From assembly GCF_000024545.1 (NCBI RefSeq), contig NC_013947.1, positions 2,790,001-2,854,000 of the forward strand: a DNA stretch of 64,000 nucleotides, in the 5' to 3' direction. Both the position numbers and the translations under genes were made by a program. This document shows positions 3,531 to 43,960 of the stretch, in pieces (position 1 is the stretch's first letter; the number at the start of each line of letters is the position of its first letter). The DNA comes from Stackebrandtia nassauensis DSM 44728 (GTDB lineage Bacteria; Actinomycetota; Actinomycetes; Mycobacteriales; Micromonosporaceae). A model generated the notes under the pieces. It saw nothing but the letters and a program-made list of their open reading frames with translations. It did not search any database and was not told the origin of the DNA.

Positions 3531-3605
3531 TAGATGAATTAATGGGACGAGTCCAGACTTCGTGCCCGCTTTGTTCTGCGCCGCAACACAAACAAGTAGC
3601 CCAAG

Positions 3606-4909: not shown

Positions 4910-7900
4910 CAGAATTTCACCGACTCGACCCGGTACCACACCTCCCACTCGACGGCGTCGTCGTCTTTGGACCGCGAGTGGTTCTCGTCGCGCGGTCCGT
5001 ACGCGGCGACCCAGGTCTCCGGCGGGTAGGAGAAGCTGCGGCGGTAGCGGACGCTGCGCGCGGGGTGCGGCAGCGGCAACCGGTCTCCAGCGTGGAGTGT
5101 CAGCGTCATCGCGTCGGTCTCACCGACGAACCCGTCGAAGATGACCGTGTCCAGCGGAATCTCCACCAGTTTCTTCGACCGCGCCGCCAGCGCGTTGCCG
5201 TTGGGCAGCGGGATCACCGTCGACACGGTGCGTTTGGCGTCGTGGCTGAAGCCCACGCACGCGGTCACGCAGGCGGCGTCCTTACGGGACGGCCAGTGCC
5301 GGTCACCGGTGATGGCCACCCGCTCCAGGGTGACGCGGATGCGCGACACCGGCAGCGGCGCCTTGGCCCGGCGCAGCCGGACCTCGTAGGTGCTGCCACC
5401 GACGATCTCGCCGCGCTGACGTTGCAGCACCGACAGCCGCTGGCGCTGCCCGTAGGGGATCTTGTGGTTGCCCTTGACCACCAGCAATCCCTGGAGCCTG
5501 CCGCCGCCCTTGACCGAGACGCCGCGGATCTGGCTGGGCCGCAGCGAGTCGAACTCGAACAGCCGCGAGTGGTCGAGCTTGCTCCACAGTTCCTTGTGGT
5601 CGACCTCGACGTCCTCGTCGGGGTGCGAGTACCAGGTGCCGATGTCCTCGCCCTCGCGCAGTTTGTACTCGCTGACACCCACCAGCTGCTTCTTGACGTC
5701 GATGTCGATGGGTTCGGTGAGCATCCCGATGGTGCCGCTGACGAAGTTGTCCGGCTTGACGATGATGTCGATGCGGTCGTCCTCGCGCAGCGCGTTGTGG
5801 AACAGGATCGGCACCAGCGTCGGCACCGGCCTCGGGCCGGGCGAGTTGATCACGTGCAGGTTCTTCAGGCACACCCGCTTCTCGTTCTTGATCAGCACGT
5901 TCGGGTTGGTCTCGGTGGTCGTGATCGGATCGTCGGCGCACGACACCACCGCAATCAGGCAGCTGTGGGTGGTGGCCGAGGCCGGGACCGTCCAGTCCCA
6001 CGACACGATGACCGGCCGGTTGGGCTCCAGGACGCTGATGTTCTGGGCCGGTCCGATCGGCTCCCAGTCGACGGTGGACGACAGGTTGAAGTCCGGCGGC
6101 ACCAGCGCGTTGGGCAGACTCGGCAGCCCGCCCGCGGCCGAGGCGAAGAACGCCCGCACCGACACGTCGGTGGTGGGCTCCCAGCCTCGGTTGTGGACCT
6201 GGAGGTAGAAGCGGTTGTTGACGGTCCGTTTCGGGTCCTCGTGGTCGACGTCGTCGTCGAACTCCACGCCGTCGAAGACCGGGTCCGTCGTGTAGTACGG
6301 CGAGGTGTCGACCTTGATGTCGGGGCTCTCCCAGAAGTGGACGGTGTCGCCCACGTCGTTGGGGTTGGGTTCGCCGCTGGGCGACGGCGTCAGCTCTCCG
6401 ACGTCGAGGATGCTGTCGCGCAGGTAGACGTCCACACTGGGCTCGATGACGGCCGGGGCGATGCTCACCTTGTACATGCCGCGCCCGAAGGTGGCCGCGT
6501 ACATCGTCTCGTCATCGACGTCGATGTGCAGGTCGGCGATGACGACGTTGGGGATGCCGTTGTCGAAGGCCAGCCAGCTGACGCCGCCGTCGGTGGACTG
6601 GAACACCCCGATGTCGGTGCCGACCCAGATGGTGTCGTGGTCGGTGGGGTGCAGCACGATCGCGTTGACGCTGACGTTGGGCAACCCGGCGCTGAGGTCG
6701 GTCCAGGTGGTCCCGGCGTCGCCGGAGTGCCACACCGACTGCGGTGAGCCCATCCCGGTGGCGCCGTAGGTGACGAACACGCTGTCGGCGTCGTCGGCGT
6801 GCACCGCCAGGTCGGTGACCGGACGCGAGGTCGGCAGCGAGGCGTCGGTGACGTCGGTCCACGGGTTGGTGCCGCCGCCGTCGTCGCTGCGGTACACATT
6901 GCCCTGTCCGACCCGCGAATAGGTGTTGCCGGTGCCGGCGTACACCCGGTTGGAGTCCGACGGGGCCACCGCGATGGCGCTGACGGTGGCGGCCAGCGTC
7001 TGGCTCGACTGCGTCCACGGGGTGGCGCAGCCGTCGAGGGTGCGGAACACCCGGTTGGTGCCGCAGTACAGCCGGTCGGGATCGTCGGGGTCCATGGTGA
7101 TGACGCCGGTCCACGGCGTGGTGCCGACCAGGCCCGCGGTCTTGGCGACCCAGGTGTTGCCGCCGTCGGTGGACTTCTCGATCTGGGTGCCCTGGTACTC
7201 GGCGTAGATGGTGCGCGGATCGGTGGGGTGGGTGACGAAGTACATGCCGTCGCCGCCGTGGATGGGCCGCCAGGTCAGGCCGCCGGTGGTCATGTTGGTG
7301 CCCTGGTCCTGGGTGCCGCCGCCCACGACGGTGGAGATGTGCTCCCACGAACCCAGGTCGTAGAACTGGCTGATGACCATGCCGTGGCTGGCCTTCTTGA
7401 AGCTCGCGCCGCCGTCGGTGGACTTGTAGAAGCCGCCGTCGTTGCACTCGTACACGATGTTCGGGTCCGAGGGCGCGAACACCGCCTGGTGCTGGTCGGA
7501 GTGCAGCCCCGGGATCGCCGCCCAGGTGACCCCGCCGTCGGTGGTGCGTTCCAGTCCGACGCTGCCGGCGTACAGGACGTCCTCATTGGTGGGTGACACC
7601 GCCACCAGGTCGCACCAGCCGGTCCAGCCCGCGCCGTGGCTGCCGGGCAGCGTCGTCCACGAGTCGCCGCCGTCGGTGGTCACCCGGACGGTGCCGACGC
7701 TCTTGCACACCAGGAAGTCCTCGCCGCTGGCCCCGCCCAGGCCCATCGCGATCTTCACCCACTGGGCCGCGGCCCCGGTCGGTCCGGCGCCCAGCAGGCT
7801 CCACGACGCCCCGGCGTCCTCGCTGCGGTAGATCCCGTCATTGTGGACGCACGCGTACAGCAGGTCGCCGCTGGAGTCGATGCACGCGTCGCTGACCTGC

Positions 7901-33950: not shown

Positions 33951-34883
33951 TCAGACCTTGACTTCGTCCCGATCCTTTTGCGACGCGGGGCTTTCCGAGG
34001 ACTCCTCGTCCTCCTCATCGTCTTCGTCGTCGTCCTGGTCCTCATCCTCGGACGGCTTGTACTCGTCGTTCTCGGATGACTGGTACTGATCCGTCGAGGT
34101 TCCCTCGGTGCCGCTGGCGCCACCGCTGGCCGAGGACATGGCCTCAGCGATAGTGGTGATGAGCCCCAGCGCCTGCGAGATGATGGGCATCAACTGCCCG
34201 ATCAGCGAGCCCAGCGAGTTCATGACGTTCGCCAGATCGGTGAGCAGCTTGGCGATCTGGGGAGCGTACTCGGCCACCAGCTCGATGAGACCCGCGATCG
34301 CCGCGGCGAGTCCGAGCGGGTTCATTGCCTGCGCCAGCAGGGGAATCGCCCTGGTGACCGCCTCGTTGACGAGCACGGTGACGTCTTGGCGCACGGCGTC
34401 GACGGCCTGCGCGCCCTGCTGGGCAGCCGTCCCGATGCCCTGGAAGCTGTTCCCGGCGCCCTCCACGGCGCTGGACTCGGTGTCCGTGGCGCCCCGATAC
34501 GCGGAGACCGCCTGCGAGTTCCAGTCCGCGCCGTCCGTGGCGACCGTGTCGCGCAGCGCCCGGCCCTGCGAGGAGAACTGTTCACCCACGTCGTTCCACG
34601 TCTGCGCGAACCCCTGGATCTTGCCCGGGTCACCCGCCAACTGGTTCATCGCCTGCTGAAGCGGAGCGAACAACTCTGCCGCCCAACCGAACCCGGACGA
34701 GGACAGCGAGCCGATGGGGTCAGCCACGACACCCTCGGACGAAGCGGCCTTCGGGCCGTTCGTCAGGCCCATGGACCAACCACCGGAGCGGATCTCGGTC
34801 AGTGTCTGCTCGATATAGGCGATGAGGGTGTCCACATCGCCGGTTCGACTGGAACTGTCGGTGTCGCTACTGTGGTCGTTCAC
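33951..34883 (-). CDS. WXG100-like protein with hydrophobic core and acidic tail
   Basis: A 310-residue protein. Around residues 105-150 the sequence QGRALRDTVATDGADWNSQAVSAYRGA carries a W-N-S turn, a variant of WXG, between two helices. Residues 175-255 are a run of hydrophobic helices rich in Ala/Leu/Ile. The last 50 residues are extremely acidic (EDEDQDDDEDDEEDEESSES). The start overlaps the upstream gene stop by 4 bases, so the three minus-strand genes 35628-33951 form one translationally coupled operon. It fits a type VII secretion substrate or effector of the WXG/LXG group. No toxin domain is recognised. Confidence 0.7.
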   Translation of the reverse strand: MNDHSSDTDSSSRTGDVDTLIAYIEQTLTEIRSGGWSMGLTNGPKAASSEGVVADPIGSLSSSGFGWAAELFAPLQQAMNQLAGDPGKIQGFAQTWNDVGEQFSSQGRALRDTVATDGADWNSQAVSAYRGATDTESSAVEGAGNSFQGIGTAAQQGAQAVDAVRQDVTVLVNEAVTRAIPLLAQAMNPLGLAAAIAGLIELVAEYAPQIAKLLTDLANVMNSLGSLIGQLMPIISQALGLITTIAEAMSSASGGASGTEGTSTDQYQSSENDEYKPSEDEDQDDDEDDEEDEESSESPASQKDRDEVKV

Positions 34884-35233
34884 GATTGCGCTCCGGTGAT
34901 CTCGTTAGTGCTCAGGCCCTGGGAGGTCTGGTCGATGCCCTGCCCCCCGTCCTGGTCGGTGTTGGTGTACGTGACGGCCAAACCGCAAACGGCCTGACTT
35001 TGTATGCCGACCGTTTCCTTGGCGGCGTTGATGAACCCCTTGGCGGCCTCTTCGGCCATGGACAGCAGGGGAACGACGAACGGCGCGAACAGCGGCCCGA
35101 AGGCGTCGGCACCGTCGGCGGCGGACACCGTGTTGGCGGTGTCCGCCACGGTACCCATCTGGCCCCCGATGGCGGCGATGTTGTCGCCATGGGCCACCAT
35201 TTTGGACGGAACGACATTCAACGGTTCATTCAT
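34880..35233 (-). CDS. DUF2580/EspC-like small ESX-associated protein
   Basis: A 117-residue helical protein resembling ESX-1 secretion-associated proteins of the EspC/DUF2580 group: an N-terminal helix (VVPSKMVAHGDNIAAIGGQMGTVADTANTV), a Gly/Asp turn (ADGADAFGPLF), and a second helix (SMAEEAAKGFINAAKETV). No WXG is present. It overlaps both neighbours by 4 bases. In mycobacteria EspC-type proteins are co-secreted with EspA; a similar co-dependence with the 310-residue partner is inferred. Confidence 0.7.
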   Translation of the reverse strand: MNEPLNVVPSKMVAHGDNIAAIGGQMGTVADTANTVSAADGADAFGPLFAPFVVPLLSMAEEAAKGFINAAKETVGIQSQAVCGLAVTYTNTDQDGGQGIDQTSQGLSTNEITGAQS

Positions 35234-35628
35234 CGCGGCTGCCTCCTGGGCGGCGGGGTGGTGCCGAAAGCCTCGGCATAGGTGTCGCGCATCTTCGTCA
35301 CCGTCGCGGAGTCATCCCCGAAGGCATCGGCGGCGATACGCTTCACACGCTCGGCCAGGTGCCGACGCGCCGTGCGCGTGCCCTCGAGGATCTCGTCCCG
35401 CAACCCGGTGGGACCCAGGCTCATCGCGGCACGGCTGATCTCCAGGTCCGCCAGACCCCCGTTGGAGTCAACGGTGACCTTCACCGAACCGTCCCGATTG
35501 CCAGCGGTGATGGACAACTCGTTCATGGCCCGGCGCATCTGTTGTGCGTTCTCCTGCTGCTGACGCGCCGCCCGTCCGATCTCATCGATCACGGCCTGAG
35601 CCCCGGTCATTGGATCGCCCGTCATCAT
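35230..35628 (-). CDS. YbaB/EbfC family protein of the ESX-like cassette
   Basis: A 132-residue protein with the YbaB/EbfC fold pattern: a long N-terminal helix (QAVIDEIGRAARQQQENAQQMRRAMNEL), strands GSVKVTVDSNGGLADLEIS, and a C-terminal helix (RTARRHLAERVKRIAADAF). Canonical YbaB is a nucleoid-associated protein; in actinobacteria, paralogues of this type (such as EspL) accompany ESX substrates. The ATG pair at 35628/35625 follows AAGGA. It is the first gene of the operon and overlaps the next by 4 bases. Confidence 0.75.
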   Translation of the reverse strand: MMTGDPMTGAQAVIDEIGRAARQQQENAQQMRRAMNELSITAGNRDGSVKVTVDSNGGLADLEISRAAMSLGPTGLRDEILEGTRTARRHLAERVKRIAADAFGDDSATVTKMRDTYAEAFGTTPPPRRQPR

Positions 35629-35938
35629 GCGTCCTTTCCATTTGCGTGTTGACTGACGAGGCAACGCTATTTCGCCGCAGGCGGGACCAGTCCCGAAAAT
35701 CAGGTGTTACTGGTTGTAGTACCTCTCTTCTTCGACAATCCCACCCACCCCGCCACGGCCGCGCTGTTCGGTCAAACCGCACCGGGCTAGCCGCCGCTTC
35801 GTGGTAGCGCTCCCACGACTCTTAGTTGGGGTTTCACATGCGGTTTCATTTGCTGGTAATGTCCGCCGCGCTGTCATTCTCAGCCCTTACTGACTTGTCA
35901 GCAAGGAAACTGCACCACTCCCTCAAAGGAACCCCATA
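35629..35938. other. Intergenic region with divergent promoters
   Basis: A 310-base gap between the type VII-like operon and a small secreted protein gene. It contains a CTGAC-TT-GTCAG inverted repeat (35890-35901), 38 bases before the plus-strand start, and AAAGGA as the ribosome site. I see no further small gene. Confidence 0.4.
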
Positions 35939-36301
35939 GTGAAGCGAATGAAACTGGTCTTCGTCGCCGCCGCCACCGTGGCCCTGGTCGGCGGTGCCAC
36001 CGCCTACGCCACCGCCGACGACCTCGGCGCGAAAGCCGCCCCCATCGCGAAGAACGCCTACGGCTACATCACGTTCATCGACAACGGCGACAAGTTCAAG
36101 GTCTGCGACACCAAGAAGGACGGCAGAGGCGTCGTGGGAAGCGTGCACGACACGCGAGAAATGCTCGACTACGACACCGACGGCGGCGACTCCGGCTGTG
36201 ACTACTTCACGTACGACGTGGTCGAAGGCCCGGAGTACCACCTTGAGATCGAGCGGATCGGCGGCGGCTCCCGCGCGCACTCCGTGGGATTCTACGAGTA
36301 G
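35939..36301 (+). CDS. Small secreted protein, 120 aa, unknown function
   Basis: A GTG start with AAAGGA 9 bases upstream. Residues 1-26 are a signal peptide (MKLVFVAAATVALVGGATAYATA). The mature part is about 94 residues with two cysteines (KVCDTKK and SGCDYF) that may pair, and a Gly/Asp-rich beta-type sequence (ITFIDNGDKFKVCDT). I do not recognise the family. It resembles small exported proteins common in actinomycetes. A strong hairpin terminator follows, so it is a single-gene unit and separate from the P450 operon downstream. Confidence 0.75.
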   Translation: MKRMKLVFVAAATVALVGGATAYATADDLGAKAAPIAKNAYGYITFIDNGDKFKVCDTKKDGRGVVGSVHDTREMLDYDTDGGDSGCDYFTYDVVEGPEYHLEIERIGGGSRAHSVGFYE

Positions 36302-36404: not shown

Positions 36405-36442
36405 GTGGGTTTTGGTGGCGTTTGTGGAACTATTGTGGGAAC
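36405..36442 (+). promoter_or_regulatory. Phased GTGG repeats upstream of the P450 operon
   Basis: GTGG occurs at 36405, 36415, 36424 and 36435, spaced 10, 9 and 11 bases, and the last two lie within TTGTGGaAC/TTGTGGgAAC repeats. The array ends about 78 bases before the P450 start. Such phasing suggests an oligomeric regulator. The nearby palindrome TTATCGATAA (36386-36395) is also notable. Confidence 0.45.
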
Positions 36443-36519
36443 GGGTCTAGCTGGGTTCGGTGCTTACGGTTAATCTGACCGAATAGTTACCGACCGGATA
36501 CAAGGGAAGGTGAATCCCC

Positions 36520-37713
36520 TTGTCACAGCCTGGTTCTGACGACCCCATCATGTCCTTGGCGAGACCGGAAATCCTGGTCGACCCCTATCCCCACTACGCG
36601 AAACTGCGCGAGAACACCCCGGTTTTCTTCTACGAGCCACTCAACTCGTGGATGTTCACAAAGTACGCCGACTGTGTCGCGGTCCTGAAGGACAGCGCCC
36701 GGTTCGCCGCCGACTGGCGCCGGGTCGGGGAGCAGGTGCCGCCCCGCGCGATCAACATGCTCACTTTGGACCCTCCCGAGCACACCGGGGTGCGCCGACT
36801 GTTCCTGGAGACCCTGCGCGCCCAGGACAATGCGAAGATCGAGGCGCAGATCGCCGCACGCACCACCGAGCTGCTGGACTCGCTGCAGGATCGCGAGTCC
36901 TTCGACTTCCTCACCGAGTTCGCCGAGCCGTTGGCGCTCAACACCACCGCTGACTATCTGGGGGTGGAGCCGCCGGAGGCGGAGTGGACCTCCCGGGTGG
37001 GCCGGATCGTGGCGGCGGGCATGGACGCGGGCCTGTGGCCCGAGCGCGGCGCGCAACTGCGGGACGCCCATGAGGAACTGGCTGACCTTGTGGACGGCTG
37101 GATGGCCGACCTGCCGAAGACCGGCATCCTCGGCGAGTTGCGCGCCCGTCTCGACGGCACCGACGTGGCGCCCGATGTCCTGGCCAACACCGTGCGCGGG
37201 TTGCTGTTCTCGGGCTTCAGTTCGGGCGGGAAGCTGCTGGCTTCGGCCGCGGTGACCGTGTTCCACGAGCGCGCCGCCGCGCTGCCGGACTTCGTCGCGG
37301 CCGATCCGGTGCGCGCCACCGACGAACTGGTGCGCTACGCGGGTCCGATTCAGGCGGTGGCCCGGGCGTGCATCACCGACACGACGATCGGTGACACGCA
37401 GGTGAAGGCCGAGCAGGCGGTGACGCTGTTGCTGGGCGCCGCCAACCGGGACCCGGATCGGTTCGCCGACCCGGAGTCGGTGCACCTGGATCGGCATCCC
37501 AACCCGCACCTGGGTTTCGGACGGGGTCCGAAGTCGTGTCTGGGTTCGCCGTTCACCGCGATCCTGTTGCGGGTCGTCATGCGGATGCTGTCGCAGCGTT
37601 TCCCCGAGGCGCACGCGACGGGTGAACCGTCCTATCTGCCCAATCTCACCTTGCGCAGTCTGGACCGGTTCCCGGTCAGCCTGCGCGCTGAATCCCAGGC
37701 GGGTGTGCCATGA
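36520..37713 (+). CDS. Cytochrome P450 with non-canonical I-helix
   Basis: A 397-residue bacterial P450. The heme-binding loop is FGRGPKSCLGSPF with Cys340 as thiolate ligand, and the K-helix ExxR is E269-R272. The I-helix reads LLFSGFSSGGK (about 228-238): where most P450s have A-G-x-D/E-T, this one has S-G-x-S-S, so the acid-alcohol pair for proton delivery is absent. Such changes occur in P450s that perform phenol coupling or other non-hydroxylating chemistry. The start is TTG behind GGAAGG. It is the first gene of the operon and overlaps the sulfotransferase by 4 bases. The Y-W-Y pentapeptide encoded 1.5 kb downstream makes it a candidate cross-linking enzyme. No ferredoxin gene is adjacent. 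Confidence 0.9.
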   Translation: MSQPGSDDPIMSLARPEILVDPYPHYAKLRENTPVFFYEPLNSWMFTKYADCVAVLKDSARFAADWRRVGEQVPPRAINMLTLDPPEHTGVRRLFLETLRAQDNAKIEAQIAARTTELLDSLQDRESFDFLTEFAEPLALNTTADYLGVEPPEAEWTSRVGRIVAAGMDAGLWPERGAQLRDAHEELADLVDGWMADLPKTGILGELRARLDGTDVAPDVLANTVRGLLFSGFSSGGKLLASAAVTVFHERAAALPDFVAADPVRATDELVRYAGPIQAVARACITDTTIGDTQVKAEQAVTLLLGAANRDPDRFADPESVHLDRHPNPHLGFGRGPKSCLGSPFTAILLRVVMRMLSQRFPEAHATGEPSYLPNLTLRSLDRFPVSLRAESQAGVP

Positions 37714-38336
37714 CGAGACTCGACATCATCGGGGCGTCCTTCGGGCGCACCGGAACCACCTCGGTACGGCTGGCCCTGGAGACGCTGGGTTTCGGGCCCT
37801 GCCACTACATGCGGCACCTGTTCACCGATGTCGAACACGCGCGGGACTGGATGTGGGTCGCCGATGGTAACGATCCCAACTGGGACGTGCTGCTGTCCGG
37901 GTTCGCCAGCACGATCGCCTGGCCCGCCTCGTGCTACTGGCGCGAGTTGGCCGAGGCGTTCCCGGACGCGAAGGTGCTGCTCATCGACCGGGATCCGGTG
38001 GAGTGGTACGGAAGCGTCAGTCGCACGCTGTACCGCACCCGGCCGAGGACGGCCGTCGAACCCCGGGACAAGACCATCGAACGTCTCATCTGGAGCGGAG
38101 TCTTCGACGGCCGGTTCTCGGACCCACAGCACGCGATGGACGTGTATCGGGCGCATCGCGACGAGGTCCGCGCCACCATCCCCGCCGACCGGCTCGTCGA
38201 CGTCGACGTAGCGGCTGGATGGCCGCCCCTGTGCGAGGCGCTGGGGGTCGCGGTTCCCGACGAGCCGTTCCCACACGCCAATTCGACCGGCGAATACCTG
38301 GATCGGGCCCGCTCCGCCGGGGCCGTCCCCAACTGA
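37710..38336 (+). CDS. P-loop sulfotransferase family protein
   Basis: A 208-residue protein of the actinobacterial PAPS-dependent sulfotransferase group (Sulfotransfer_4 type). IIGASFGRTGTTSVRLALETLG is the 5'-phosphosulfate loop near residues 6-27, and AKVLLIDRDPVEWYGSVSRTLY is the 3'-phosphate-binding region with R and S. The predicted reaction is O-sulfation of a hydroxyl, for instance a tyrosine phenol of the modified peptide or a hydroxyl added by the neighbouring oxygenases; the substrate is inference. The gene overlaps the P450 stop by 4 bases (ATGA) and precedes the methyltransferase by 10 bases, so all three are co-translated. Confidence 0.85.
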   Translation: MTRLDIIGASFGRTGTTSVRLALETLGFGPCHYMRHLFTDVEHARDWMWVADGNDPNWDVLLSGFASTIAWPASCYWRELAEAFPDAKVLLIDRDPVEWYGSVSRTLYRTRPRTAVEPRDKTIERLIWSGVFDGRFSDPQHAMDVYRAHRDEVRATIPADRLVDVDVAAGWPPLCEALGVAVPDEPFPHANSTGEYLDRARSAGAVPN

Positions 38337-38346
38337 AGGAGCGCAC

Positions 38347-39117
38347 ATGGAGACCGTGCCGGACCTGACCGTCACCTCTGACACCGACCCTTATGGAGCC
38401 GTCGCCGGGCTCTACGACTGGCTGCACGTGGGACCGGGATCCACCGACCTGGTGTCGTTCTTCGCCGAGCTGGCCCCCGAAGGGGGCACCGGGCTGGAGA
38501 TCGGGCCGGGCACCGGACGGATGACACTCGCTGTGGCCCCGAGACTGTCCTCGCTGTACTGCCTGGAGCGCTCGGCGTTCATGCGGACGATCCTGCTGAC
38601 GAAACTCGCGTCGCTTCCGGAACTGCGGGAGAAGGTGACCGTCCTCGATGAGGCCGTCCCGGGATTCAGTCTCGGGCGCACCTTCGACTACGTCTACGTT
38701 TCCGCCGTGTTCGAGCACGTCCCGCCGGACGCCCGCCAGGCCCTGTTCGCCGGGCTGGCCGAGCATCTCGCCCCGGGCGGGATCGTGGCCATGGACATGG
38801 TCGAGGACGAGGTCATTCCCCGGTTCGCGGAACGCGAGATCCGGTCGGTGCGGCAGGGAGACTGCCGGTACACATTGTCCACCGCCGTGACCCCGGTGCA
38901 GCCCGACCTGGGACAGGTGCGGCACGTGTACCGCACCTACCTCAACGACGAACTGCTGACGACCCACACCGTGGAGCGCGAACACCACATGCACCGTCCC
39001 GCCGCGGTCTTCGCCGACCTGCGAGCCGTCGGCCTGGAACCGGTGGCGGGCACGGCACTGACCAAGACGGGTACGCCGCTTGACGACAAGGGAACCCTGG
39101 TCGCCAAGCGGGTGTAA
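38347..39117 (+). CDS. SAM-dependent class I methyltransferase
   Basis: A 256-residue soluble protein. Motif I is LEIGPGTGRMTLAV (about 50-63), and YVYVSAVFEHVPPDARQALFAGLAEHLAPGGIVAMD covers motifs II-III. The acceptor is unknown; O- or N-methylation of the operon product is likely from context. AAGGAG lies 5 bases before the ATG. After its stop, 78 bases containing a 9-bp hairpin separate it from the mini-gene at 39196. Confidence 0.88.
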   Translation: METVPDLTVTSDTDPYGAVAGLYDWLHVGPGSTDLVSFFAELAPEGGTGLEIGPGTGRMTLAVAPRLSSLYCLERSAFMRTILLTKLASLPELREKVTVLDEAVPGFSLGRTFDYVYVSAVFEHVPPDARQALFAGLAEHLAPGGIVAMDMVEDEVIPRFAEREIRSVRQGDCRYTLSTAVTPVQPDLGQVRHVYRTYLNDELLTTHTVEREHHMHRPAAVFADLRAVGLEPVAGTALTKTGTPLDDKGTLVAKRV

Positions 39118-39126
39118 CCGTCATGG

Positions 39127-39168
39127 AATCCGGTGCCCGGGTCTCGACAGCCTGTGGGACACCGGATT
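39127..39168 (+). terminator. Hairpin upstream of the MRYWY mini-gene
   Basis: A 9-bp perfect stem, AATCCGGTG/CACCGGATT (39127-39135 with 39160-39168), extended inside by CCC/GGG with a bulged A. It lies between the methyltransferase stop and the mini-gene. It could be a partial terminator, an RNA processing stop or an attenuator. Confidence 0.55.
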
Positions 39169-39195
39169 GAGCACAGTCCGGAAAGGAGGTGCGCC

Positions 39196-39213
39196 ATGCG
39201 TTACTGGTACTGA
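39196..39213 (+). CDS. 18-bp gene for pentapeptide MRYWY (biarylitide-type RiPP precursor candidate)
   Basis: ATG-CGT-TAC-TGG-TAC-TGA encodes M-R-Y-W-Y. A near-perfect Shine-Dalgarno, AAAGGAGGT (39182-39190), sits 5 bases before the ATG, although no longer frame starts there, so ribosomes must be directed to this five-codon frame. Known biarylitide precursors are pentapeptides of the same length (for example MRYYH, with leader MR and core YxH) cross-linked by a P450. Here the core would be Y-W-Y, and a P450 is the first gene of the same operon. Strong hairpins flank the mini-gene on both sides. Differences from known clusters are that the P450 is three genes upstream rather than directly after, and that many extra tailoring genes are present. 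An alternative is a regulatory leader peptide acting on the next gene. Confidence 0.65.
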   Translation: MRYWY

Positions 39214-39224
39214 GTTGCGAGTGT

Positions 39225-39252
39225 CGTGGCCCGGCGAACGCGTCGGGCCACG
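39225..39252 (+). terminator. Hairpin directly after the MRYWY mini-gene
   Basis: A 9-bp perfect stem, CGTGGCCCG/CGGGCCACG (39225-39233 with 39244-39252), extended by GCG/CGT around the tetraloop AACG, 12 bases after the mini-gene stop. Leaky hairpins in this position commonly raise precursor over enzyme expression in RiPP operons. Confidence 0.6.
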
Positions 39253-39303
39253 GCCAGCGCAGATTACCGCCTCTTCGCGACCTCTGGAACAGGAGTACTT
39301 CCG

Positions 39304-40269
39304 ATGACCACGCCAAGCCTGGAACAACGGTGGGAATCGGTGCCCGCCACGGCGGCGCTCGACCGCGTATACGACGCCTCGCTGCTGGCCGCCGAGGTCA
39401 ACGCGCTGCGTGAGCAGACCTGGAAGGTGCAGCGTTCCGTCGGGCAGGACGGCGTCTACGGGGGTGCCGCGATCGACTGGACGATCCTGTCGTTGCGCAG
39501 CGCGGGCGGTGATCCGGCCCGTACCGATCCCGGCGGTGCCGGGCCCGTCGATCACGCCGACACCCCGCACCTGGACCGCTCGCCCGAACTGGCCAAGGTG
39601 CTGCGCGACATCCCGACGACGCTGTTGGCGGTGCGGCTCATGGCTTTGGGGCCGGGCGTCGAGGTCAAGGAACACCGGGACGCCAAATGCGGCCTGCCGT
39701 GGGGGATGACGCGGCTGCACATCCCCGTCATCACCAATCCGGGTTCGTTCGTGGTCATCGAGGGCCGCGACTACCACTGGGACGCGGGACGGTTGTGGTT
39801 CGGTGACTTCAACCGGCTCCACTATGTCCGCAACGACGGCGAAGAGGCCCGGATTCATCTGGTGCTGGACTGTCTGGTCAGCCCGGAACTGCTTGACTTG
39901 TTCCCGTCCGAGTTCCGGGACGCCCTTCCTGAGCGCGATGTGCTGGTGACCCGGCCCAACCTGCCGAGCCCACCGGTGACGCGCTGCCGGTTCCGGATGC
40001 CCGCGCGGTTCGTCGAATGGTCGGAGGAGGAACCGGTCGCCGCGATCGACGAACTGGTGGACGCCGAGGTGGTGCCCGGCGACGACGGCCCGGTACTGCA
40101 TGTGGACGGTAAACCGACGTTCGGTCTGGTTCACGTCGGCGACGACGAGTTCCGGTTCACCGGCTGGTCGGAGGAGCGCACGGTGAAACTGGCGAACGGC
40201 CACGTGCGATGCCGAACCCGGTTGGGCGAAAGGATGTCCGAGACCGTCTGTCTGACCGAACTCGCGTGA
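39304..40269 (+). CDS. Aspartyl/asparaginyl beta-hydroxylase-like Fe(II)/2OG dioxygenase
   Basis: A 321-residue protein. EVKEHRDAKCG supplies H124-x-D126, and the AspH motif GDFNRLHYVRNDGEEARIHLVLD supplies distal His173 and the 2-oxoglutarate-binding Arg183. The double-stranded beta-helix core covers about 55-195. The C-terminal 120 residues resemble a small accessory domain (PPVTRCRFRMPARF onward). Family members hydroxylate Asp, Asn or peptidyl residues at the beta-carbon. The ATG at 39304 has CAGGAG 10 bases upstream; an earlier in-frame start at 39226 would run through the hairpin. The stop overlaps the FAD monooxygenase start (TGATG). A peptide substrate is plausible in this operon. Confidence 0.85.
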   Translation: MTTPSLEQRWESVPATAALDRVYDASLLAAEVNALREQTWKVQRSVGQDGVYGGAAIDWTILSLRSAGGDPARTDPGGAGPVDHADTPHLDRSPELAKVLRDIPTTLLAVRLMALGPGVEVKEHRDAKCGLPWGMTRLHIPVITNPGSFVVIEGRDYHWDAGRLWFGDFNRLHYVRNDGEEARIHLVLDCLVSPELLDLFPSEFRDALPERDVLVTRPNLPSPPVTRCRFRMPARFVEWSEEEPVAAIDELVDAEVVPGDDGPVLHVDGKPTFGLVHVGDDEFRFTGWSEERTVKLANGHVRCRTRLGERMSETVCLTELA

Positions 40270-41828
40270 TGAAGGTCCTGGTCGTCGGCGGCGGTCTCGT
40301 CGGACTGTCGACGGCGCTGTTCCTGGCCTGGCACGGTGTCGAGTGCACAGTGGTGGAACGCCATCAGGATGTGTTGCGGCACCCGCGAATGCGCAGTCTG
40401 GCGCCGCGGCTCGTCGAGATGTACCGCCAGGTGGGCCTGGAGCCCGAGCTGGTGCGCGCCGGTGACGCCTTCGCCGATCACGCCGAGTTCACCATGGTGC
40501 GGGCCGAGACCCTGGGCGGTGTCCACACAGTACTGGACAAACATCAGGACGCGGGGCTCGCCGACGACATCAGCCCGTGCCGGGGCATCCCCATCGACCA
40601 GGACCGGGCCGAACGGCTGGTGTGGCGGCGGGCGAAACAGCTGGGGGCCGATGTCCGCTTCGGCGTCAGCCTCAAGGACTTCAGCCATGACGGCGCGGGG
40701 GTGACCGCGCGGCTGCGAGCCGCCGACGGCACCGTCTCGACCGTGACCGCCGAGTACCTGATCGCGGCCGACGGCGCCAACAGCGGCATCCGGCACCGGC
40801 TGGGCATCGGCATGACCGGCCCCGGCGAGATCAGCCGGATGCTGTCGATCCTGTTCGAGGCCGACCTGGATCCGCTGCTGGGCGACCGCTCCGTCCACAT
40901 GGCCTTCCTGACCCAGCCGCACCCGCAGACCTACCTCATGTCCCTGGACCCGCAGCGGCGACGCTGGGTGCTGGGCACCTCCGACCCCGGGGACCGTGGC
41001 GCCACCCGCGATGACTGCGAGGCGCTCGTCCACGCGGCCCTCGGGGGCGAACCGCCGCTGCGGATCCTGCCGCCGGTGCCGGGATCGACGAGCCCCGCAC
41101 TGCGATTCGGGCTCGGCGCCGCCGTCGCCGATCGGTTCCGGGACGGCCGGGTGTTCCTGGTCGGCGACGCCGCGCACCACATGCCGCCGCCGGGCGGTTT
41201 CGGTGGTGCGACCGGGGTCGCCGACGCCCACAACCTCGCCTGGAAACTCGCGGCGGTGCTCACCGGCCGCGCCGACTCGGCGCTGCTGGACACCTACCAC
41301 GCCGAACGGCACCCGGTCGCGGAGTTCACCATGCGCCAGGCCCTGGCGCGAGCCAGCACCCGGCTGGGCGCCGACTGGACCGACCGCGAAGCGACCATCG
41401 TCGAGCGCACCGCGGTGATGATGGGCTACCGCTACGGATCCGAGGACATCGTGTCGGCCGAACCGGCCGCCGTGGGCACCCGGTTTCCGCACCTGTGGCT
41501 GCCGTCGGGCGAGTCCAGCCTCGACCTGTTCGGCTCGGGGTTCGTGCTGCTGACCTCGTCCGGAGGCGAGGCCTGGGGGCGAGTCGGCCACGAGTCGTTG
41601 ACCGTCAACCGTCTGCCGATCGACCTGCCCGGCGTCGACCCCGACGGCGCGATCCTGGTCCGACCCGACGGCTTCGTCGCCTGGCGCGGACGCGCGTGCC
41701 CCGATGATCCACAGGCGACCATCGATCGGGTGATGGCCGCGTCGCTTCACGGCAACAGTCCGGTTACGGAAAGTTCTTCCGTTTTGTCGCCAACCGAATT
41801 CCCGCCGCCGAGCGTCTTTAGGAGGTGA
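40269..41828 (+). CDS. FAD-dependent aromatic monooxygenase (PHBH fold)
   Basis: A 519-residue class A flavoprotein monooxygenase. It has the Rossmann motif VVGGGLVGLS (about 5-14) with VVER at the end of strand 2, the D-G motif AADGANSGIRHRLG near 167-180, and the G-D motif VFLVGDAAHHMPPPGGFGGATGVADAHNLAWKL near 295-326. The C-terminal thioredoxin-like extension is seen in polyketide-type aromatic hydroxylases (RdmE/PgaE group). The expected reaction is NAD(P)H-dependent hydroxylation of a phenol or indole. Tyr or Trp of the pentapeptide is an inferred target. The ATG overlaps the upstream stop. The end overlaps the PBP-like gene by 4 bases, which ties that gene to the biosynthetic operon. 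Confidence 0.9.
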   Translation: MKVLVVGGGLVGLSTALFLAWHGVECTVVERHQDVLRHPRMRSLAPRLVEMYRQVGLEPELVRAGDAFADHAEFTMVRAETLGGVHTVLDKHQDAGLADDISPCRGIPIDQDRAERLVWRRAKQLGADVRFGVSLKDFSHDGAGVTARLRAADGTVSTVTAEYLIAADGANSGIRHRLGIGMTGPGEISRMLSILFEADLDPLLGDRSVHMAFLTQPHPQTYLMSLDPQRRRWVLGTSDPGDRGATRDDCEALVHAALGGEPPLRILPPVPGSTSPALRFGLGAAVADRFRDGRVFLVGDAAHHMPPPGGFGGATGVADAHNLAWKLAAVLTGRADSALLDTYHAERHPVAEFTMRQALARASTRLGADWTDREATIVERTAVMMGYRYGSEDIVSAEPAAVGTRFPHLWLPSGESSLDLFGSGFVLLTSSGGEAWGRVGHESLTVNRLPIDLPGVDPDGAILVRPDGFVAWRGRACPDDPQATIDRVMAASLHGNSPVTESSSVLSPTEFPPPSVFRR

Positions 41829-43960
41829 ATGATCCCCAGGAAGATTCTCATCACACCGAAGACAACGAATCCGAAGCTGGCGAACCTCACGATTCGCGGG
41901 CACGCCTGGTCCCGCCGCTGCTGGCGTGGCTTCCCACGGCGCTCGGCCGACCCGGTACCGGCCGCGCCAGAGTCCGACCAGTCGACCTGCGGGTCGCGCG
42001 ACTGGAGAAGTCCAAGCGCCGCAAACGAACCCGCCGGAAACGGCGGCTGACCGCACTGGCGGCGGTGGCATCCATACTGGCGGGCGTCAGCATCGTCGCC
42101 GGTTCGGTGTTCTTCGCTTCCGTTGAGCTGCCGGGGGAACTGGACGACCAGCTGAGTCAGAACTCCACTGTCTACTATTCGGACGGCAAGACCGAGATGG
42201 CCACCATCGGTGCCCAGAAACGGACCTCGGTCTCGCTCGACGAGATACCGAACCACCTGGAGTGGGCGCTGATCGGTACCGAGGACAAGCAGTTCTACGA
42301 ACACGAGGGTGTGGACATCTGGGGTGTGCTGCGGGCGTTGTGGAACAACGTGTCCGGTGGCTCCACCCAGGGGGCGTCCACTTTGACGCAGCAGTACGTC
42401 GGGCAGGTGGCCGAGATCCGCGGCGACGGCAGCTATCTGCGCAAGGCGCGCGAAGCGGTGATGGCGATGAAGATGGAGGACCACTACGGCAAGAAGTCCA
42501 TCCTCAACCACTACCTGAACCTCGTCTACTTCGGACGGGGAGCCTACGGCGTCGAGGCGGCGGCGCACGCCTTCTTCGACAAACCGGTCAAGGACCTCGA
42601 CGTGGCGGAGTCGGCGCTGCTGGTGGCGCAGATCAAGTCTCCCAGCGGCGCCTACGATCCCGGTGATCCGCTGGGACTCGGCAAGAACGAGGTCGAGGGA
42701 AACGCCGAAGGCCGATGGTCCTATGTGCTCGACCAGTTGGTGAAGATCGGGAAGCTGAAGGAATCGAAGCGCGACAAGATCACGAAACTCCCTGACACTG
42801 TGGACCCGTCCAGCGTCATCGAGGCCCGCGTCGACACACCGACCGGGCACATTTCGCACGGGTACGTGCTCGACGAGCTTCGCGAGGCGGGAATCTCGCA
42901 GGAGGAGGTGCTTCGCGGCGGCTTCCGCATCACGACCACCGTCGACACGAAGCTGCAGGACGCGGCGGCCAAGGCCGCGAAGCGGGCCACCGCCTCCGGT
43001 GACGAGGACGCCGCGGTGGTGGCGGTCGAACCGAACACCGGCCGGGTGCTGGCCTACTACGGCGGGCCGTCGGGCGCGGAGGCGGACCTGGCCGGGTCCG
43101 ATCTGCCGCATCCGCCGGGCACGACGTTCAACGTGGTTCCGGCGCTGACCGCGTTGGAGCACGGCGCCTCGCCGACGTCGAAATGGGACGGTTCCTCGCC
43201 CCGGAAAGTCGACTACCGGGACGAACCCATCGTGAACATCGGAGGGAAGGACGAACCGAAGGCGAGCCTGACCGACGTCGTCAGCGAGAAACTCAGCACC
43301 GGCGCCGACGACATCACCGAGAAGTTCGGTCCCGAAGCGGTGGCGGACACCGCGAACCGACTGGGCGTCACCCGGTTGCGGCAACCCGCGACCGAGGACT
43401 CGGAACCGCAATGGCGGGATCCGGGCGACGCGGAGGCCGAGTGGACCGGCGGCGTGGGAATCGGCGAGTACGGGATGTCGCTGGCGGATTCGGCGACCAT
43501 GTACGCCACCATCGCGGCCGGGGGCACCCGCGCGACGACGCACGTCATCGAGAAGGTCACCGACGCGGACGGCGAGACGGTGTTCAAACCCAAGGACTCC
43601 GCGAAACGCGCGGTCGACGGCACGGCAATCGGTGACCTCACGATGATGTTGTCGTATGGCGTCGTGCCGCCGACCGACACCGACGACGCGAGGTACCTCG
43701 ATGTCATGGCCACCAACGCTTCGGCGACCTCGTACACCGGGTTCAGCCCGGCGTTGTCGCTGGCGGTGTGGGCGGGTGACGACAAGCACGAGGGCGACGG
43801 CAGTTCGGTGAAGGACACCACGGCGCAGAAGATCTGGGAGCGGGTCGCCGCCACCGGTGTCGAGCGGTTCCCGACCACGAAATCCGATGCGGGCCTGGAG
43901 GGATCCGAGGAGGACCCGAAAGGGGAGCCGAGCACCTCGGCCCCGGACCCCGGCGACTGA
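41825..43960 (+). CDS. Class A PBP-like protein: intact GT51 motif, degenerate transpeptidase
   Basis: A 711-residue bitopic protein with a basic cytoplasmic tail and a membrane helix at about 75-99. The GT51 domain (110-290) is intact at the key site: TEDKQFYEHEGVD with catalytic Glu153, then GGSTQGASTLTQQYV and KILNHYLN-type sequence. The transpeptidase domain has lost its motifs: the SxxK position reads PGTTFN (432-436, Ser to Thr, Lys to Asn), the SxN position reads KLS (489-491), and KTG is replaced by TNA (about 630-632). It cannot act by the normal serine-acyl mechanism. The GTG start lies within AGGAGGTGA and overlaps the monooxygenase stop by 4 bases, so translation probably depends on re-initiation. 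Inside a tailoring operon it may be an immunity or decoy target; a diverged housekeeping paralogue is the alternative. Confidence 0.85.
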   Translation: MNDPQEDSHHTEDNESEAGEPHDSRARLVPPLLAWLPTALGRPGTGRARVRPVDLRVARLEKSKRRKRTRRKRRLTALAAVASILAGVSIVAGSVFFASVELPGELDDQLSQNSTVYYSDGKTEMATIGAQKRTSVSLDEIPNHLEWALIGTEDKQFYEHEGVDIWGVLRALWNNVSGGSTQGASTLTQQYVGQVAEIRGDGSYLRKAREAVMAMKMEDHYGKKSILNHYLNLVYFGRGAYGVEAAAHAFFDKPVKDLDVAESALLVAQIKSPSGAYDPGDPLGLGKNEVEGNAEGRWSYVLDQLVKIGKLKESKRDKITKLPDTVDPSSVIEARVDTPTGHISHGYVLDELREAGISQEEVLRGGFRITTTVDTKLQDAAAKAAKRATASGDEDAAVVAVEPNTGRVLAYYGGPSGAEADLAGSDLPHPPGTTFNVVPALTALEHGASPTSKWDGSSPRKVDYRDEPIVNIGGKDEPKASLTDVVSEKLSTGADDITEKFGPEAVADTANRLGVTRLRQPATEDSEPQWRDPGDAEAEWTGGVGIGEYGMSLADSATMYATIAAGGTRATTHVIEKVTDADGETVFKPKDSAKRAVDGTAIGDLTMMLSYGVVPPTDTDDARYLDVMATNASATSYTGFSPALSLAVWAGDDKHEGDGSSVKDTTAQKIWERVAATGVERFPTTKSDAGLEGSEEDPKGEPSTSAPDPGD

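Follow-up and report, generated by a model that had tools for sequence, protein, structure and literature searches.

The MRYWY biarylitide-type gene cluster of Stackebrandtia nassauensis: conserved gene set, boundaries and predicted tailoring of the peptide

Biarylitides come, to our knowledge, from the smallest known genes, and their precursor genes are overlooked by gene finders. In the present work, we analyzed a window of 64,000 nucleotides from the single-contig genome (6,841,557 bp) of Stackebrandtia nassauensis DSM 44728 (NC_013947.1, positions 2,790,001 to 2,854,000), with attention to an 18-bp gene, bytA, which encodes the pentapeptide MRYWY, and to the genes around it, coding for a cytochrome P450 (P450), a sulfotransferase, a methyltransferase, an AspH-like hydroxylase and a flavin adenine dinucleotide (FAD) monooxygenase (Table 1).

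The cluster itself is already known, and our additions to it are incremental. The preliminary description had announced a new relative of the biarylitide clusters; the locus is in fact the one with which Padva et al. (JACS Au 2026, July; PMC13417212) founded their MRYWY clade, as indicated by the same organism, the same precursor, the same bytO gap of about 1.4 kb and the same sulfotransferase-bearing clade as in the S. nassauensis/A. rupis clusters described there. Some 1400 bp downstream of a bytO homologue of S. nassauensis, these authors report a bytA for MRYWY, and they place the locus as the founding member of a six-cluster clade in which five clusters carry sulfotransferases. According to the same paper, AciB, the P450 of A. 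rupis, turns Nle-RYWY (Nle, norleucine) in vitro into one product with a Tyr3–Tyr5 C–C bond. Roles gene by gene are not given in its main text.

Two further systems are close to the locus. The SlyP product (precursor MRYAY, Streptomyces lydicamycinicus; PMC13417212) shares with the MRYWY clade the YxY core and the Tyr3–Tyr5 C–C link, whereas its precursor has a small residue at position 4. Myxarylin (bytA for MNYLH, bytO and bytZ; PMC8708641, PMC12951456) has in common with the S. nassauensis locus the 18-bp precursor gene, the P450 and a related class I methyltransferase; however, its link is a C–N bond between Tyr and His, that of the MRYWY clade being a C–C bond between two Tyr, and no sulfotransferase, AspH or FAD gene is described for it.

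Table 1. Features of the MRYWY locus of S. nassauensis (positions in the window).
Feature	Position	Strand	Basis
Presumed promoter region, intergenic, 5' of the P450 gene	36405..36519	+	Position only
bytO homologue, cytochrome P450, TTG start, predicted cross-linking enzyme	36520..37713	+	Pfam p450 1.5e-17
Sulfotransferase	37710..38336	+	Pfam Sulfotransfer_4 1e-55
Class I S-adenosylmethionine (SAM) methyltransferase, BytZ/CorZ-like	38347..39117	+	Pfam Methyltransf_12 1.6e-11
Shine-Dalgarno AAAGGAGGT of the mini-gene	39182..39190	+	Read directly; GGAG core kept in homologues
bytA, 18-bp precursor gene for MRYWY	39196..39213	+	Same place in 7/7 clusters
Hairpin directly 3' of bytA, arms 39225-39234 and 39243-39252	39225..39252	+	RNA fold z -3.5
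AspH-like Fe(II)/2-oxoglutarate hydroxylase	39304..40269	+	Pfam Asp_Arg_Hydrox 2.8e-17
Class A FAD aromatic monooxygenase	40269..41828	+	Pfam FAD_binding_3 6.8e-82; also Rng_hyd_C
Class A penicillin-binding protein (PBP): transglycosylase and degenerate transpeptidase	41825..43960	+	Pfam

The mini-gene reads ATG-CGT-TAC-TGG-TAC-TGA, with the ribosome-binding site AAAGGAGGT before the ATG and aromatic residues at positions 3 and 5 of the pentapeptide, as in the precursor genes of biarylitides. This 18-mer has a single exact occurrence in the 6.84-Mb genome, and a Shine-Dalgarno followed by MRYWY and a stop was found in one of the 399 genomes of the order, that of S. nassauensis itself; open reading frames (ORFs) of the form M-x-Y-x-(Y/H/W) behind a Shine-Dalgarno numbered zero in 3.84 Mb of Markov sequence versus one in the window. 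Relatives of the locus were gathered by searching the genome collection with the window P450 and by further genome searches. Six further loci harbor MRYWY with a Shine-Dalgarno at the same place: those of Actinomadura barringtoniae (L004), Nonomuraea jabiensis (L005), Stackebrandtia albiflava (L006) and A. xylanilytica (L007), L032, from a genome of the window's own GTDB family that may be A. rupis, and L063. Moreover, bytA forms a conserved island inside a poorly conserved spacer, and its Arg codons vary synonymously (CGT, CGG, CGC), with one TAG stop; the island and the synonymous codons together are the pattern expected for a translated peptide. Conservation of the mini-ORF in homologous operons had been set beforehand as the test that could refute the preliminary description; it is kept in all of them, in the same position, and the mini-ORF is confirmed as real, beyond chance.

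The distance between the end of the P450 gene and the ATG of bytA is 1,483 bp, that is, more than the approximately 500 bp within which earlier studies looked for bytA from bytO. According to PMC13417212, this rule has been widened because of the S. nassauensis locus, so that such a gap no longer excludes it.

As expected for a biarylitide P450, the enzyme matches the structure 8u2m (named as P450Blt in PMC12951456) at 7.5e-74, with matches to other P450s of up to 4.6e-90, and it groups in the tree with P450s adjoined by biarylitide-like mini-genes; its haem Cys motif, FGRGPKSCLG, is intact. Probing NCBIfam for specific P450 or methyltransferase families retrieved only matches below the curated cut-offs. 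The P450s of the MRYWY clade have SGxS where the YxH relatives have AGxE, which can be taken as a lead. We consider it highly probable that the locus is a biarylitide (byt) cluster cross-linking MRYWY: the ribosome would make the pentapeptide from the 18-bp gene, and the P450 would then form a C–C bond between the Tyr3 and Tyr5 side chains, as its orthologue AciB does in vitro. In this respect the preliminary description, which had recognized the cluster as biarylitide-type, with a precursor gene of 18 bp, a P450 upstream of it and unusually many tailoring genes, is borne out. The same applies to the layout it had given: the genes between 36520 and 43960 are all on the plus strand and overlap or nearly touch, with a gap only around the mini-gene, and the six Pfam assignments agree with it.

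The P450, methyltransferase and FAD monooxygenase genes accompany bytA in all seven MRYWY clusters, while the sulfotransferase gene is present in six (it is lacking in L007) and the AspH-like gene in three (the window, L006 and L032). The conserved operon is P450-(sulfotransferase)-methyltransferase-bytA-(AspH-like)-FAD monooxygenase; the gene order is fixed across several bacterial families, and the seven P450s form one clade with a support of 100/100. Among the cluster flanks compared, no shared genes, including transporters or a protease, were found outside the P450-to-FAD stretch, and what follows downstream varies from cluster to cluster: L006 has a P-type ATPase there, L004 a DsbA-like protein and L032 a P450. 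The window, L004–L007 and L032 fit the published count of six clusters, five of them with sulfotransferases. If these are the published six, L063 is probably a seventh MRYWY cluster. It spans L063:4986-9409 in an 11.3-Mb genome (G1219), comprises P450, sulfotransferase, methyltransferase, MRYWY (at 7712) and FAD enzyme genes with no AspH gene, and is closest to the cluster of N. jabiensis.

As for the tailoring enzymes, the methyltransferase is related in sequence to CorZ (9SOT/9SOV; 5.7e-08 over residues 20-154), although not exclusively, since it also matches the cypemycin N-terminal methyltransferase (6.5e-04). CorZ is the N-methyltransferase of myxarylin and acts only after leader removal, for which the myxarylin work suggests a borrowed peptidase encoded elsewhere. 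No protease is present in the S. nassauensis cluster; here, too, Met-Arg may be removed by a peptidase encoded elsewhere. The match to CorZ, together with the order in which CorZ acts, leads to the prediction that the methyltransferase then methylates the freed N-terminal Tyr. The sulfotransferase motifs GRTGTTS and RDPxxWYxS, presumed to bind 3'-phosphoadenosine-5'-phosphosulfate, are conserved in the homologues, and an enzyme of this class would be expected to sulfate a phenol. In the AspH-like protein, the metal-binding His-x-Asp...His triad and the Arg for 2-oxoglutarate (H124, D126, H173 and R183) are invariant in five homologues, and the fold of its model (mean predicted local distance difference test score 72) matches 7v4f and proline hydroxylases and resembles small-molecule and AspH-type 2-oxoglutarate hydroxylases; judging from its class, it may hydroxylate a carbon of the peptide. 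Lastly, the nearest solved relatives of the FAD enzyme are RubL, GrhO5 and RdmE, and also 2-hydroxybiphenyl 3-monooxygenase; the enzyme is related to hydroxylases of phenol and of 2-hydroxybiphenyl. A C–C dityrosine is itself a hydroxylated biphenyl; hydroxylation of a phenol ring of the biaryl is thus a natural guess for this enzyme class, but only a guess.

By analogy with these relatives, the likely product would be Tyr-Trp-Tyr with a C–C cross-link and with N-methyl, hydroxyl and sulfate groups added. Each decoration, considered by itself, has about the same chance of being right as of being wrong. A little below that stands the proposal that no biarylitide so far is as heavily decorated as the one made by this clade: besides N-methylation, ring hydroxylation and sulfation, the C–C cross-linked YWY would undergo, in some strains, a second hydroxylation by the AspH-like enzyme.

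Several points weigh against this picture. In PMC13417212, no product was obtained from S. nassauensis, from A. rupis or from S. coelicolor carrying the clusters, so that expression and decoration are unproven; the in vitro evidence for the cross-link concerns AciB of A. rupis and not the P450 of S. nassauensis; and the match to CorZ spans the SAM-binding half only, with the methyltransferase 3g2m scoring slightly better. Furthermore, the published sav cluster includes SavH, which is comparable to the AspH-like enzyme, and from this cluster only the undecorated cross-linked peptide was seen.

That the enzymes added in the sav cluster leave no visible modification would also fit a more restricted scheme, in which only the P450 and the methyltransferase act on MRYWY, the sulfotransferase, the AspH-like and the FAD enzymes being passengers from another pathway; the absence of the sulfotransferase and AspH genes from some MRYWY clusters points in the same direction. 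We regard this as unlikely, given that the FAD gene (7/7) and the sulfotransferase gene (6/7) keep a fixed order across several families, whereas the genes outside are not shared.

Even less probable is an end product other than a decorated peptide, namely a modified tyrosine or dityrosine that is cut out of the pentapeptide and passed to another pathway, comparable to the nitrotyrosine that RufO provides for rufomycin. According to PMC13417212, RufO-type biarylitide P450s do supply nitrotyrosine to a nonribosomal pathway, and a finished peptide has never been seen from the MRYWY clade; yet the same source reports a clean -2 Da C–C cross-link for AciB, and neither a nonribosomal peptide synthetase nor a nitric oxide synthase is common to the clusters, which share nothing beyond the P450-to-FAD genes.

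The hairpin that follows bytA is rich in G+C. For the window and five relatives, its stem can be drawn as 10 bp in which no cell is left unpaired. In L006 it sits further downstream. Three pairs are changed on both sides, which is a modest support, consisting of three changed cells in two sequences within an alignment chosen around the hairpin. Its likeliest role is probably that of a partial terminator that keeps the precursor above enzyme levels: by limiting read-through, it would let the precursor outnumber the downstream enzymes. In the case of myxarylin, the supplement of PMC8708641 sets the predicted structure of the bytA-bytO gap beside a terminator hairpin. The conserved hairpin between the mini-ORF and the downstream genes could also suggest a regulatory leader peptide, attenuating the transcription of the AspH and FAD genes and not serving as an enzyme substrate, but this is very hard to sustain against the synthetic Nle-RYWY accepted by the clade P450 AciB (PMC13417212), the constant presence of such an ORF beside this P450 type (MRYWH, MKYWH, MRYLH and others in related clusters) and the location of the P450, sulfotransferase and methyltransferase genes upstream of the mini-ORF.

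The biarylitide operon ends with the FAD gene. The preliminary description had also counted the PBP gene, whose GTG start codon lies within the 3' end of the FAD gene, as a member; this was ruled out because it is absent from the six other MRYWY clusters, and the PBP is an unrelated neighbour. Its reading as a pseudo-PBP was correct: a functional class A PBP is not recognizable, as TTFN stands in place of SxxK and STG in place of SxN, and a KTG was not found, while the glycosyltransferase motif EDKQFYEHEG is kept. The genome encodes a second PBP, 42% identical (G000:6279486-6281606); congeners have PBPs of about 45% identity, and relatives are also present in related genomes without the cluster. 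On the other side, the region upstream of the cluster (34880-36301) holds three small-to-medium minus-strand genes with a WXG/ESX-like look (34880-35664 and its neighbour) and, just 5' of the cluster, a small, possibly secreted protein (35939-36301, plus strand); no gene of this region is common to the other MRYWY clusters.

Clusters with MKYWH or MRYWH mini-genes (L009, L059–L061 and L064) occupy neighbouring lineages of the P450 tree and have a related P450, a methyltransferase and an AspH gene by a YWH mini-gene; the sister lineage carries MKYWH mini-genes, with methyltransferase and AspH in L059–L061 and L064. In contrast to the MRYWY clade, their precursor adjoins the P450 and has His at position 5. 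A second P450 is present in L009 and L064 (L059–L061 are too short to tell), and neither an FAD enzyme nor a sulfotransferase was found in these five loci. L009:10001-14286 belongs to Micromonospora sp. MW-13, the source of the studied MRYLH P450Blt, and shows a P450, MRYWH, a strong hairpin (z -5.6), a methyltransferase, an AspH-like gene and another P450. In a paper of 2021, biarylitide clusters outside myxobacteria were said to lack methyltransferase genes; contrary to this statement, such genes recur in the actinobacterial clusters of this branch.

Other mini-ORFs were also observed among the relatives. In Nocardioides speluncae (L008), a biarylitide-type P450 (2338-3486, 54% identical) precedes a mini-ORF with a Shine-Dalgarno for MRYIR (3542-3559; MPMRYIR if an upstream ATG is used), in which residue 5 is Arg and not aromatic; next come an inverted repeat and, on the opposite strand, a sulfotransferase. 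CoreFinder, by its published rule, requires aromatic residues at positions 3 and 5 and would miss such a precursor. It is a single case, and no relatives of this P450 were found in 199 genomes of its family. Actinomadura sp. J1-007 has two MRYRH mini-ORFs behind a P450 (L029:11203 and 11284), with an AspH-like gene upstream on the opposite strand, and L057 has tandem MRYIH mini-ORFs (at 2689 and about 70 bases downstream) by a biarylitide-type P450, with a sulfotransferase-like gene upstream.

The MRYWY clade has the richest enzyme set that we found around such a mini-gene, and it could show what a finished biarylitide looks like and perhaps explain why the simple biarylitides tested so far are all inactive. 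With the cross-link solved in an orthologue, interest shifts to the action of the three or four conserved tailoring enzymes; a reconstitution is easier to design now that the genes are delimited, a likely seventh member has been added and the PBP is excluded. If the proposed decorations are correct, an 18-bp gene would give rise to a sulfated biaryl tripeptide, which is a type of product unreported in the papers cited here.

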